The notes below the pieces were generated by a model. That model had not been told where the DNA came from. It did no database searches and worked only from the letters and a program-made list of their open reading frames with translations. Positions 6,225 to 10,249 of a stretch of DNA of 21,126 bases are shown here, one piece after another; position 1 is the first letter of the stretch; every line of letters starts with the position of its first letter. The translations under genes and the position numbers were made by a program. This DNA is from a virus, in IMG/VR virus record IMGVR_UViG_3300037042_002462, positions 1 to 21,126 of that record; one strand, written 5' to 3'.

Positions 6225-6905
6225 TTAATTTGATAATGGTGCTTTAATTGATGGGTGTGATTGATAATCCTTCATTGTGAAATCACCAATAACATAAGAT
6301 TCAATACTTGGTCTTGATCCTTCATAAGTTGGGAACTGATTTAAGGTTGGTAAATCAAATGGTTTTCTTCCAATTTGTTCTTTTGCTTGTTCAAGATGGT
6401 TCAAATATAAGTGAGTATCACCCAAGTTTCCAATCAATTCGTCAGGAACCATATTTACTTCTTTTGCCAATATTTCTAATAACAGTCCGTAAGAGGCAAT
6501 GTTGAATGGTAAACCTAAGAATGTATCCACTGAACGTTGATTCCACATTAAAGAGATTGCTCGGGTTGGAATGGTATTTTTGTATTTTTCATAATCCATT
6601 CCTGTATCTCCATACTTTTTAATATACAAATCAACTCTTTCTTCTCTATTCAACTCTCTTGTGTAAACTTGAAATCCATAATGGCAAGGTGGAAGTGTCA
6701 TTTTTGGTAAATCGTGAACAGCCCACGCACTCACAACCATACGTCTAGAATTTGGATTATCTTTTAGTTGCTTAACCAATTCAGATATTTGGTCAATACC
6801 CTTATTACCAAACTCATCATTAAATTCGTTGTCAGTTTTTAATTTTTGTAAGAACTCTTCTTTTGTGAAAGGAGTCCCATCTTCGTGTGTATGTTTACTC
6901 TGCAT
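6225..6905 (-). CDS. thyA: Thymidylate synthase, C-terminal half (split gene)
   Basis: This ORF carries the second half of ThyA: GIDQISELVKQL, NSRRMVVSAW with the phosphate-binding Arg pair, LPPCHYGFQ with the catalytic Cys, QRSVDTFLGLPFNIASY, GDTHLYLNH and a C-terminal PSIKAPLSN. It lacks the N-terminal Arg loop and folate/dUMP residues, which lie in the ORF at 7779-8279. ThyA makes dTMP from dUMP and methylene-THF. I chose the ATG at 6905, which overlaps the HNH stop (ATGCAGAGTAA); an in-frame GTG at 6929 is the alternative. Before GIDQI the protein has a segment (about residues 10-36 from the chosen start) resembling the insert of the N-half. Activity would need the two chains to assemble. 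Confidence 0.9.
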   Translation of the reverse strand: MQSKHTHEDGTPFTKEEFLQKLKTDNEFNDEFGNKGIDQISELVKQLKDNPNSRRMVVSAWAVHDLPKMTLPPCHYGFQVYTRELNREERVDLYIKKYGDTGMDYEKYKNTIPTRAISLMWNQRSVDTFLGLPFNIASYGLLLEILAKEVNMVPDELIGNLGDTHLYLNHLEQAKEQIGRKPFDLPTLNQFPTYEGSRPSIESYVIGDFTMKDYQSHPSIKAPLSN

Positions 6906-7611
6906 AATTCCAGTTTTTAAATTTTTCACTCTTGCTTTTTATTCTATCACTAACCATATCCCACTTAACACCCAATCCATTTGACGCTTGTCTAATACTC
7001 TCATACCATACACCTTCAATAATACAAGCTCTTTTATGAACCGAAACATCACTTAATTTTTTTCTAAACTCTAGTGATGAGTTCCTTTTTATATTCGCTT
7101 CACTAATTTTTTTACGGGTTTCTTCAGAAAGTTTTCTACCTGTCATAGCTTTACGTGTTTCATCCGAATGTTTCCAGCCAGATTCCAATCTCTTTTTGTG
7201 AATTTTATCAATAACTTCTTGTGGTCGTTTTCTACCTTTAAGTGTTTCGCTTGTTTTTCTTTTATGTTCTTCACTTAACTTAACACCTTTTTTCTTTTCA
7301 CTCATTAATTTTATTACTTCTATTTTAATAGATTCATAAACTCTAGAACTAGGAACATATCTACTTTGTCTCTTACTTTTCATATTGCACATTGCCCATA
7401 ATGCAAACTTTAACTTATTACTATTAGGATAGATTTGTACTAGTAATCTGTGACACATAAAATGCTCTCTAGCAGTTAAACTCACTAAGTTTTCTTTATC
7501 GTCTGAACCGCCTATACATCTTGGTATTATATGGTGTTTTTCTGTATAACATTCCAGTATTCTATTCTCCGCTCTGTTTACTATCTGATTGTATATTTTT
7601 TCGTAATTCAT
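6895..7611 (-). CDS. HNH homing endonuclease with NUMOD3 repeats
   Basis: 238 aa. N-terminal HNH nuclease: EKHHIIPRCIGG (24-35) with His26-His27, then Asn41 (KENLVSLT) and His50 (REHFMCH). Next come several NUMOD3-type DNA-binding units (GVKLSEEHKRKTSETLKGRK, about 109-128, and GRKLSEETRKKISEA, 158-172), followed by a NUMOD1/IENR1-like C-terminus (GVWYESIRQASNGLGVKWDM). Such enzymes nick or cut an intronless or uninterrupted allele and are copied in by repair. It lies between the two thymidylate synthase halves; its last codons overlap the ATG of the C-half, and its first 50 nt overlap the small ORF at 7562-7732. No room remains for a group I intron core, so it is probably a free-standing insertion. 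Confidence 0.92.
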   Translation of the reverse strand: MNYEKIYNQIVNRAENRILECYTEKHHIIPRCIGGSDDKENLVSLTAREHFMCHRLLVQIYPNSNKLKFALWAMCNMKSKRQSRYVPSSRVYESIKIEVIKLMSEKKKGVKLSEEHKRKTSETLKGRKRPQEVIDKIHKKRLESGWKHSDETRKAMTGRKLSEETRKKISEANIKRNSSLEFRKKLSDVSVHKRACIIEGVWYESIRQASNGLGVKWDMVSDRIKSKSEKFKNWNYAE

Positions 7612-7732
7612 AGTATTTTTCCATTGTTTTTTTATTTATCACTTCTTTGTTACGATGATAATACTCTTTAGCCCAAGCTCTTTGAGCTTCAATCTTTTCT
7701 TGTTCTGTTTTGTATTTTTTTAATCGTCCCAT
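7562..7732 (-). CDS. Small basic helical protein in the thyA interruption, 56 aa
   Basis: ATG at 7732 gives an ORF ending at 7562-7564 that overlaps the HNH start by 50 nt in another frame. It begins MGRLKKYKTEQEKIEAQRAW and continues with AKEYYHRNKEVINKK, a Lys/Arg/Glu-rich single long helix. Similar basic YYxRNKE helices occur at the ends of phage and giant-virus HNH or zinc-finger nuclease proteins, so it could be a DNA-binding partner or a detached N-terminal part of the endonuclease. Too short for a clear call. Confidence 0.55.
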   Translation of the reverse strand: MGRLKKYKTEQEKIEAQRAWAKEYYHRNKEVINKKTMEKYYELRKNIQSDSKQSGE

Positions 7733-7778
7733 TTATAATAAATATATAACTAAAAGAAAAAAACTAAAAGAATTATAA

Positions 7779-8279
7779 TTATTTTTTAATTTTTTTCAAA
7801 TAATCTTCATACAAATCATCATCTGATTTACCATTCCAATTACGCCAACCGTGTCCGTAGATTTTTCCTAAATCACCCCACTTCTGAGCAAACTCATCAT
7901 CTGTTTTGATTTTGTTAATGAATTCTTCTTGTGTTAATAACTGACCATTTTCATTAATATAATCTTTTGGTGGATTAGATTTTTTTATTGGAAAACTATT
8001 CTTAAAGAATTTATACGCATCTCCATCCCAGATATGACAATTATTGTCAACCAAATACTTAATATTTGTATCACCACGAAGGAACCATAACAATTCGGTT
8101 ACCATCGTCTTCCACGCCATTTTCTTGGTTGTTAGTAAAGGAAACCCTTCACTCATTTTATGTCTGATCTGACGACCGAAAACACTAATGGTTCCAGTCC
8201 CTGTACGATCACTTTTCATAATCCCATTGTCAAGAATATCCTGTAGGAGTTCTTGGTATTTTTTATCTAATGTATTCAT
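7779..8279 (-). CDS. thyA: Thymidylate synthase, N-terminal half (split gene)
   Basis: 166 aa. It holds the first half of Thy[14 protein letters not shown] (23-35, the phosphate-binding Arg loop), [12 protein letters not shown] (46-57), [12 protein letters not shown] (62-73), NCHIWD (80-85), and [17 protein letters not shown] (134-150). After WNG the normal protein would continue into the DQI...SRR segment; here it runs into a short tail and a stop at 7779. A common bacterial insert (about 107-133: [12 protein letters not shown], then [12 protein letters not shown]) precedes WGDLG. It starts in an ATGA overlap with 8276-8515. The catalytic Cys lies in the separate ORF at 6225-6905. Confidence 0.93.
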
Positions 8280-8515
8280 ATTAATTCATCATTAACCTCA
8301 ATTTCAGTTTCTATTTCAGAAATTTTATTTTTCACATAGTTCTCCAACTCTTTACTCACTCTGAGATATTCATTTCTTAAATCGTGGAATTTTTCGTCCT
8401 TAATCTCTTCAAAACTTGAGTAACTTTCAAAACAATAATGAAATCCTTCAGCACCAATTCTGTATCTGACGTTTTGGAATTCTTCCAACTGATCATATAA
8501 TTTATCTAATTTCAT
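8276..8515 (-). CDS. Hypothetical protein, 79 aa
   Basis: I start it at the ATG at 8515, which shares a base with the stop of the cREC gene (TAATG); a longer frame would need a TTG. It begins [20 protein letters not shown] and continues [18 protein letters not shown], an aromatic-rich core, then a charged coiled-coil C-terminus. I have an impression that the [12 protein letters not shown]...SSFEEI...FHDLR pattern recurs in phage small proteins but cannot name it. Its stop overlaps the thyA start (ATGA), so cREC, this gene and thyA-N are one translationally coupled unit. Confidence 0.8.
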
Positions 8516-8925
8516 TATACCGTGTGTTCTATTTGTACTCTTACACAATTTTGTGGCATTCTATTCAAATGTCTGTAGTTATTAATATAACCCATCATAT
8601 TACCACTACCCACCGCATTTGCAGAGTGTACAACAACCTCCACCGCAGGCTTACCATCCAACCATTGATTAACCAACCACTTAGTACAATCCATACCAGT
8701 TTTTTCTGTGATATTATCGTAATTAATCGTGTAGTTTTTTACAACACCATAATGCCATTCTGCCATTGCACTATCACCTAAGTCATGATCCAAAGAAATT
8801 AATTCAATGTTCTCCAACCCAATTGAATTTATCTTTTGTACGAACTCATCGTAAGAACGAACAACAATCCAACTTGGGTCAACTGGTGTTCTTACGTCAT
8901 CTAAATAAATTTTAACTTTTTCCAT
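8515..8925 (-). CDS. Cyclic-phosphate-processing receiver-domain protein (cREC)
   Basis: 136 aa. A single receiver-like domain: LDDVRTP (8-14) with Asp9-Asp10, VRSYDEFV (22-29), ISLDHDLG (43-50), TGMDCTKWLV (76-85) and VVHSANAVGSGN (98-109). These match the cREC family, a receiver-fold variant that comparative genomics has linked to cyclic phosphate ends made during RNA repair or RNA/ADP-ribose processing. It lacks a DNA-binding output domain, so it is not a classical response regulator. Led by a TATATTTG box 4 nt before the ATG. It heads the cREC-hypothetical-thyA unit. Confidence 0.85.
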   Translation of the reverse strand: MEKVKIYLDDVRTPVDPSWIVVRSYDEFVQKINSIGLENIELISLDHDLGDSAMAEWHYGVVKNYTINYDNITEKTGMDCTKWLVNQWLDGKPAVEVVVHSANAVGSGNMMGYINNYRHLNRMPQNCVRVQIEHTV

Positions 8926-8937: not shown

Positions 8938-9249
8938 CTACTTTTTTATTATACCTAAATCTATTCTATATTTTTTAATTTTAATTCTTGTCGGTTGGAA
9001 CTGATCACCGTCACTTGCCTTATGACCATTCAAGATAGCTTCAGTTATCTTTAACTCGTTATCAAGAATAAACATCATTTTCTCCTGATCTGTTAATTCA
9101 TATGGTACAACTTCCATTCTTATGAATTCACGAATCATATCTTTTATTTTACCAATTTGTTCGGTAGGATTTTGTTTAGATCCGTGTACCATAACTGATG
9201 TCTGGTATATTGTCCTACTTAATTGTAGTATTTTATCATCAAATCCCAT
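8938..9249 (-). CDS. Hypothetical protein, 103 aa
   Basis: Soluble, mostly helical. Starts MGFDDKILQLSRTIYQTSVM, then HGSKQNPTEQIGKIKDMIRE, and ends with a basic strand-like tail (RIKIKKYRIDLGIIKK). No membrane segment, Cys cluster or catalytic motif. It begins 1 nt after the stop of the repeat-protein gene and ends directly at the promoter box of the cREC unit. Family not recognised; its position suggests joint expression with the repeat protein. Confidence 0.75.
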   Translation of the reverse strand: MGFDDKILQLSRTIYQTSVMVHGSKQNPTEQIGKIKDMIREFIRMEVVPYELTDQEKMMFILDNELKITEAILNGHKASDGDQFQPTRIKIKKYRIDLGIIKK

Positions 9250-9250
9250 C

Positions 9251-10249
9251 CTAATCTATTTTTTTACCCACTTTAATTATTCCTTTAATTCTATCAGTAT
9301 GTGGATAAGGGTCTTCATGTGTTTCCTTCACACCATTTTGGATAGCATCATACACATATTGATCATGTGGTTTGGTTCTATCTTCCTTACCGTGAGAATA
9401 TTTACCCCAATCTCTGTTCCCATCTTGTGCTGGTAGTGGTTGTATTTCTTTCACACCCTTTTGAATAATGTCATCAACCCCAAGAAGAGTACGTCGTAGT
9501 GTACCATTAGTAACCTTCACCCCATTTTGAATGGTGTCTTCAACTCCATTATCTTGTGCCCACCCAATCTCGGTGTGTTTTACCCCATTTTGAATGGCAT
9601 CTCCAACTCGGTCAAATATGTTGTTATTTGCAGTGAAGGTCTGTTTCACCCCATTTTGAATGGTATTTTCAGTTTTTTTAGTTCTCGGTAGTAGTCCTCG
9701 TTTAGTTTCACTCACTCCATTTTGAATGGTGTCTTCAACTTTTGTACTCCTTCTTCCATCATAACAATCGGTGTGTTTCACTCCATTTTTAATAGTATCT
9801 CTAACGGACAACGGTCTAATTCCTCGTTCATGTCGGAGTACTTTCACCCCATTTTCAATGGTGTCTTCAACCAACGAAAGGTTTCTACAATTTGTTTCCA
9901 TGGTATCTTTCACTCCATTTTTAATGGTATCTTCAACATATTTATCCTGTTCAAAAAATGGATCCCCGGTGGTTTTAACGGTATGGAGATTCAAAAATCT
10001 TAATTCAAACCATTCAGTTACATATTTTTGATTTTCCGTAAGATCTAAAGAAATACCCCTAAATAAAGAACTGAATATTCTGTAGTTATACCACAATGTT
10101 TTATCTTCAGTAAACTCAATCATCCATTTTGTTTCTTCGGTATTAATTAACCATAAAGACCCATTATGTCGATATATGTCCATACCATCGGCAAAATCAT
10201 TGATGATCTCAAATAAACATTCTTTTTTCTTTAATTCTTTATAATCCAT
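9251..10249 (-). CDS. Repeat protein with nine 22-residue VEDTIQNGVK units
   Basis: 332 aa. Residues 1-103 form an N-terminal domain rich in Trp, Phe and Tyr (ETKWMIEF, KTLWYNYRIFSSLFRG). From about residue 104 the chain is nine repeats around VEDTIQNGVK, spaced 22 residues (one spacing 21, one 41), with a tenth degenerate copy at the C-terminus (RIKGIIKVGKK). The conserved part is about 10 residues plus Thr two positions after the Lys; the 12 residues between are unrelated from unit to unit and mostly polar. The repeats are also conserved at the DNA level (see the repeat entry). Its start overlaps the previous stop by 11 nt. No signal peptide or known repeat family matched. It may be a scaffold with many copies of one binding peptide; function unknown. 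Confidence 0.85.
   Translation of the reverse strand: MDYKELKKKECLFEIINDFADGMDIYRHNGSLWLINTEETKWMIEFTEDKTLWYNYRIFSSLFRGISLDLTENQKYVTEWFELRFLNLHTVKTTGDPFFEQDKYVEDTIKNGVKDTMETNCRNLSLVEDTIENGVKVLRHERGIRPLSVRDTIKNGVKHTDCYDGRRSTKVEDTIQNGVSETKRGLLPRTKKTENTIQNGVKQTFTANNNIFDRVGDAIQNGVKHTEIGWAQDNGVEDTIQNGVKVTNGTLRRTLLGVDDIIQKGVKEIQPLPAQDGNRDWGKYSHGKEDRTKPHDQYVYDAIQNGVKETHEDPYPHTDRIKGIIKVGKKID
9263..9937. repeat. CRISPR-like periodic repeat, 29-nt units at 66-nt period
   Basis: Nine 29-nt copies start at 9327, 9450, 9516, 9579, 9645, 9711, 9777, 9843 and 9909; intervals are 123, 66, 63 and then 66 five times. A tenth, degenerate copy is at about 9263. The core is CCATTTTGAATGG, a perfect CCATT/AATGG inverted repeat whose 3-nt loop varies (TTG, TTT, TTC), followed by TGTCTTCAAC. 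The segments between are 34-37 nt and show no similarity to each other; the 9356-9449 gap is longer and probably lost one unit. All copies are in frame within the gene 9251-10249. Confidence 0.9.

Follow-up and report, generated by a model that had tools for sequence, protein, structure and literature searches.

The variable segments of a repeat-bearing gene of large uncultured Bacteroidota phages are captured pieces of host chromosomal DNA. They are held between constant repeats in an open, selected reading frame, which sets this array apart from a typical non-coding CRISPR array, and the resulting cassettes pass between divergent phages. Taken as a whole, we consider it probable that the gene is a translated CRISPR-like array, in which spacers of host DNA are selected as peptides and exchanged between phages, with the type II-C Cas1-Cas2 of the host as the likely inserter acting in trans. 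A protein-coding gene that lengthens by taking up fixed-length pieces of DNA from another organism between its repeats is not known to us, and literature searches returned none.

The window analyzed here is a whole virus record of 21,126 bases, and the gene lies on its minus strand (Table 1). Its product of 332 residues begins with an N-terminal domain of 88 residues, followed by nine units of the form VEDTIQNGVKxT, each with a variable segment behind it. The period of the array is therefore a constant unit of 12 amino acids plus about 10 variable residues (36 nt + 30 nt). A preliminary description, made from the sequence alone, had reported nine copies of a 29-nt element starting at 9327, 9450, 9516, 9579, 9645, 9711, 9777, 9843, and 9909. 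All nine copies lie at these positions, and a repeat search, whose register is shifted by 9, gives spacings of 123, 66, 63, 66, 66, 66, 66, and 66 nt, six of the eight intervals being 66 nt. The repetition is thus real, but the length is not 29 nt, as the conserved unit in aligned relatives measures 36 nt. We also found the degenerate tenth copy that had been proposed, near 9261 at the C-terminal end (RIKGIIKVGKK), and every unit shares one frame of the minus-strand ORF, as had been claimed. The CCATT/AATGG stem with a changing 3-nt loop, described for each copy, is intact in six of the nine units but not in the others; on the coding strand the loop reads CAA, GAA, or AAA. Spacers in the window are 30 nt long save two, one of 27 nt and one of 87 nt. 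A 20-nt unit pattern allowing up to three mismatches gives seven matches, against 0.03 expected by chance. Tandem Repeats Finder misses the array in the window because the units alone repeat.

Table 1. Features of the array gene and of the adjoining gene in the window.
Feature	Position	Strand	Remarks
Gene, 332 aa	9251..10249	-	N-terminal domain and translated repeat/spacer array; 96 homologous ORFs
N-terminal domain, ~88 aa	9986..10249	-	Predicted fold alpha-beta4-alpha-alpha, pLDDT 92-97; no Pfam/PHROG match
36-nt unit 1	9902..9937	-	Domain-proximal, 'leader' side
Spacer 1	9872..9901	-	METNCRNLSL; yidC antisense match 25-26/30 in three host-family genomes
36-nt unit 2	9836..9871	-	
Spacer 2	9806..9835	-	RHERGIRPLS
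36-nt unit 3	9770..9805	-	
Spacer 3	9740..9769	-	DCYDGRRSTK; near-identical cassette DCYDGRRNTK in array L015
36-nt unit 4	9704..9739	-	
Spacer 4	9674..9703	-	KRGLLPRTKK
36-nt unit 5	9638..9673	-	
Spacer 5	9608..9637	-	FTANNNIFDR
36-nt unit 6	9572..9607	-	
Spacer 6 (27 nt)	9545..9571	-	EIGWAQDNG; same cassette family in array L031
36-nt unit 7	9509..9544	-	
Spacer 7	9479..9508	-	NGTLRRTLLG; old cassette family, present in 9 arrays
36-nt unit 8	9443..9478	-	Degenerate
87-nt cassette	9356..9442	-	QPLPAQDGNRDWG...; old, conserved, C-terminal
36-nt unit 9	9320..9355	-	Degenerate
Terminal degenerate unit	9254..9298	-	TDRIKGIIKVGKKID
Conserved gene, 103 aa	8938..9249	-	Adjoins the array; family near 37/83 arrays

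Relatives are abundant in IMG/VR, where a protein search returned 29, a profile of the N-terminal domain 168, and the repeat DNA more than 120 stretches. The 96 non-redundant homologous ORFs from metagenomic virus contigs all have the N-terminal domain (96/96) and hold 976 units in total, with a unit-to-unit spacing of 22 residues in 650 of about 880 intervals. No relatives appeared in a scan of GTDB genomes, and none among cultured phages, where tape-measure proteins gave weak matches at most. The gene and its N-terminal domain match nothing in Pfam, PHROG, or PADLOC, and Foldseek returned nothing significant for the fold of the domain. Structure prediction folds the N-terminal domain confidently and gives a mostly disordered repeat region; with repeats predicted to be disordered, the multivalent binding protein considered in the preliminary description is not suggested by the modeled structure. 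The simplest and most likely reading of the gene product would be that of a phage protein whose disordered, flexible tail consists of host-derived peptides, drawn at random and later selected. In the most intact arrays the first 36-nt repeat encodes the last helix of the N-terminal domain, and the window array is among those in which this helix has diverged from the repeat. A copy of the domain that carries no array lies at L022:7325-7729 and possibly represents the ancestral state. In G009 (L241, L243, L248), proteins have up to three N-terminal domains, most of them followed by an array of a second repeat type and then by other domains, one of which resembles a nucleotidyltransferase. Giant-virus FNIP repeats (PDB 6nyr, CroV588) are alike in their 22-residue period and gave a weak phmmer score over the repeats. 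Homology to FNIP or leucine-rich repeats was rejected, the per-domain E-value being 9.5 (PDB 6nyr), with no shared hydrophobic pattern and no Pfam match.

Young arrays have the anatomy of CRISPR. One of them (L098), located where a 190-kb contig ends, consists of eight repeats identical at 36/36 positions and eight unrelated 30-nt spacers, and near-identical repeats of this kind fall within the standard for CRISPR arrays (repeats of 23-50 nt, unrelated spacers of similar length). Among spacers flanked by near-perfect repeats, 197 of 207 measure exactly 30 nt. In four more ORFs of the L098 phage, a second 36-nt repeat, GTTGAAAGAATCCTTCAAAAGGAGGTTAAAGACACC, alternates with spacers that are likewise 30 nt long. 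Two double compensatory changes preserve a 5-bp stem, with CAA as its loop, between the two repeat types. Among repeats of the first type, old units have a decayed stem and third codon positions are variable, a pattern that protein constraint is expected to give; selection for the stem at the nucleic-acid level is at most suggested. In the 3' direction, units become increasingly degenerate and cassettes increasingly common to many arrays, while 379 of the 507 cassette families were seen once. New cassettes are enriched at the 5' side, yet some unique ones are internal, and addition would then not be strictly at the leader end. Palindromes with 10-nt arms occur in 3 of 181 young spacers, with examples in L022, L098, and L116, where none were expected.

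All protospacers located so far are bacterial, in searches that covered phage contigs, cultured phages, and bacterial genomes. The phages' own genomes and those of sister phages gave nothing convincing as a source in 3.6 Mb, and no spacer matched a cultured phage. Against 395 Bacteroidota genomes, a first set of 72 spacers had matches in 42, mostly by one spacer to the conserved rpoB gene and out of frame, and a second phylum-wide set had matches in four, which is near chance. One genome (G068) was matched by several spacers, and therefore its whole family of 240 genomes was searched. In this family, 52 of the 240 genomes match one spacer set at E up to 0.01 and 69 match another at E up to 0.003; reversed controls of the latter set matched none of 180 genomes of the family. 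Five distinct spacers match at 30/30 positions, and the alignments cover the spacers from one end to the other. A match in the family exists for 38 of the 150 young spacers searched, although these spacers were chosen partly for high GC and the 25% is not an unbiased rate. The segments were drawn from both strands and all frames: among 26 protospacers, 12 are sense, 12 antisense, and two lie at sites with no long ORF. Sources recognized by conserved sequence are rpoB, spoT, a penicillin-binding protein, pyk, and leuS, and profiles added aroE, dnaG, yidC, mazG, and lemA. No column of the sequence adjacent to the 26 protospacers rises clearly above noise, with a weak purine preference at +3; inverted repeats flank three of the 26, against 2% expected. 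As the spacers match its genomes, the G068 family of Bacteroidota is presumably the actual host of these phages. Conversely, 439 CRISPR spacers of the host gave no strong match to these phages.

In the mechanism that we propose, a spacer-integrating enzyme would, during infection, duplicate the repeat and insert a 30-bp piece of the host chromosome beside the copy. Only insertions that are in frame and free of stops would survive, each new spacer adding 10 amino acids. Useful cassettes would then be retained as peptides through purifying selection, and recombination in the repeats would move them between phages. The likely integrase would be the type II-C Cas1-Cas2 of the host acting in trans, the phage repeat resembling that of the host at its GTTG end. 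In this scheme, the identity of the integrase, its action at the time of infection, and what the phage gains are elements that we infer. As to the benefit, there is about an even chance that the phage uses the host adaptation machinery as a mutagen, with Cas1-Cas2 writing random 30-bp host pieces into the gene and the best peptides being kept and traded. We know of no other process that combines fixed 30-nt DNA capture with duplication of a 36-nt repeat.

The searches for the inserting enzyme covered phages and hosts. The 20 phage records, some of them possibly incomplete, carry neither Cas1, which was the cas gene searched for, nor a reverse transcriptase (PF00078), and no conserved candidate enzyme was recognized in the neighborhoods of the arrays. 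Cas1 is present in 35 of the 240 host-family genomes, and a genome with one exact spacer match (G659) is not among them. Arrays at 14 Cas1-adjacent host loci are mostly type II-C, as classed from their repeats, and have 30-nt spacers (29-31); two are type V-A with spacers of 25-29 nt, and one array has the identical 36/30 geometry. The first 22 nt of the phage repeat weakly resemble several II-C repeats (shuffle test, p 0.004-0.04, uncorrected), with similar p values for one type V-A repeat. The phage repeat had no identical counterpart among host CRISPR repeats. A host array with the same repeat core was considered and rejected, since the exact 17-mer gave 27 single, chance-like matches in GTDB genomes. 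In Flavobacterium columnare, the uptake of spacers by a second array, which has different repeats and a different leader, depends on II-C Cas1, and this second array, of type VI-B, takes up spacers from the host genome (PMC8092290). Moreover, type II-A Cas1-Cas2 works with 36-bp repeats and 30-bp spacers by means of an internal ruler (PMC6895254). The 30-nt spacers of the host II-C arrays and these precedents lead us to propose that host Cas1-Cas2 writes the phage array in trans; against this stand the absence of any identical repeat in the host and the small share of family genomes that carry Cas1.

These last points leave some room for the same captured-DNA array being filled by some enzyme of phage or host that has no relation to Cas1, such as an enzyme that recognizes the repeat hairpin. 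We regard this alternative as rather unlikely. It would account for the lack of Cas1 and reverse transcriptase in the 20 phage records and of Cas1 in most host-family genomes, and it would fit the hairpin kept across two repeat types and the inverted repeats at a few spacers (3/181) and protospacers (3/26 vs 2%). However, the host II-C arrays share the modal spacer length, and no conserved candidate for such an enzyme was recognized beside the arrays.

The reading frame bears on what the captured DNA is used for. No stop occurs in about 7,870 in-frame codons of 663 distinct spacers, against 4-15% stops in every other frame. Young spacers have the amino-acid composition of random DNA of 40% GC. 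Their GC is 40%, against 30-33% in nine long phage contigs, and it declines toward some 35% in spacers flanked by old repeats. A phase-mixture test for a coding origin of young spacers is uninformative, as the no-stop condition alone drives sequences to phase 0. Among cassette pairs picked by DNA identity, pN/pS is 0.21-0.39, compared with 0.82-0.98 under simulated neutral change. Older cassettes are thus under purifying selection at the protein level after capture. A role mainly as RNA, in which units of spacer and repeat would mimic host crRNAs and either sponge Cas9/tracrRNA or aim Cas9 at host genes, is improbable. Such a role would be consistent with the GUUG that follows each host-derived spacer in the sense transcript, which is the order expected of a II-C crRNA, and with the essential host genes among the matched spacers. 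It is at odds with the strict frame, with no stops in the 663 spacers, with the purifying selection on cassettes, and with the decay of the stem in old units. The repeat also has no credible match in Rfam, CRISPR repeat families included.

Exchange is evident from cassettes identical at the DNA level in arrays whose N-terminal domains are just 38-53% identical. Related arrays have some cassettes in common and differ in others by insertion, loss, or swap. One array of 25 units is identical across 22 contigs, and hence arrays change slowly on that scale. The preliminary description was right about the CRISPR-like look of the array and about its translation, and its impression that spacers are freely replaced is borne out by these exchanges. 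Between lineages we did not find the slow divergence of the same spacers with a stable number of units that it had named as the mark of an ordinary repeat protein; the 25-unit array in 22 contigs is identical. Its suggestion of shuffled peptide segments stands as far as replacement and exchange are concerned, but not as to origin, as the spacers are pieces of the host chromosome and not modules from within. That the gene is just an ordinary repeat protein, with homologous recombination shuffling segments of a large phage cassette pool, is very improbable: identical cassettes in divergent backgrounds and swaps among near relatives speak for it, but it leaves the birth of cassettes unexplained, given full-length host-genome matches in any strand or frame, young spacers with random-peptide composition and host-like GC, and 379 of 507 families seen once, so that shuffling is contradicted by the protospacers as a complete account and holds as a second process.

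Known systems resemble the translated array in part. The closest parallels considered are the type II-C arrays of Bacteroidota and the type VI-B arrays fed in trans by II-C Cas1 (PMC8092290), which are alike in having spacers of about 30 nt, constant repeats, unrelated spacers, older degenerate units toward one end, a GTTG repeat start, and the capacity to acquire host-genome spacers. Here, in contrast, the array is a translated phage gene, no Cas1 and no identical host repeat were found, and the spacers, all of those located being bacterial and chromosomal, are kept as peptides under selection. Judged by CRISPR criteria, the spacers do come from other DNA molecules, but those traced are all bacterial, where CRISPR spacers stem mainly from phages or plasmids, and no Cas1 was found in the 20 phage records. 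The array works like a CRISPR array and is set apart by its coding nature, its host-derived spacers, and the absence of Cas1 where tested. Diversity-generating retroelements and lamprey VLR modules also place variable segments in a constant protein frame; there the source is a dedicated template, whereas here the segments come from host chromosomal DNA and no reverse transcriptase was found. In Campylobacter jejuni, host-derived spacers are acquired with Cas4-bearing phages (PMC4283603), a similar phage-associated capture of host DNA, but those spacers enter a bacterial CRISPR array and not a phage gene. Finally, false CRISPRs such as SdrC (PMC5294841) are protein-coding repeats with CRISPR-like geometry; they lack diverse spacers, unlike the present arrays, whose spacers are diverse, show no relation to one another, and can be traced to source genomes.

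CRISPR-type capture of DNA that yields protein would turn random chromosome stretches of one organism into selected peptides of another, a new route by which genes acquire sequence. The origin of coding sequence de novo becomes directly observable, with older and younger layers within one gene. In addition, the spacers serve as a host record for uncultured phages and point to the bacteria that they infect. If Cas1-Cas2 is responsible, a defense module has been turned to phage use, and such genes could act as natural DNA recorders. If the mutagen reading is true, the phage gets a continual supply of new peptides.

Several other genes of the window deserve mention. The 103-residue product of the gene adjoining the array (8938-9249) ends in AILNGHK...PTRIKI, a stretch apparently related to the array's terminal unit. 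A thymidylate synthase is split over two ORFs, 7779-8279 and 6225-6929 (window 6225-8279), and an HNH homing endonuclease ORF (6895-7611) lies between the halves; Rfam gave no intron at gathering score in this region. At the contig end (17187-21124) are genes for a TonB-dependent receptor and for a protein that probably bears a type IX secretion sorting tail; they are either acquired genes or the mark of a host/phage junction. Closer to the array, a protein with a cREC_REC domain (cyclic-phosphate processing receiver domain) is encoded at 8515-8925.
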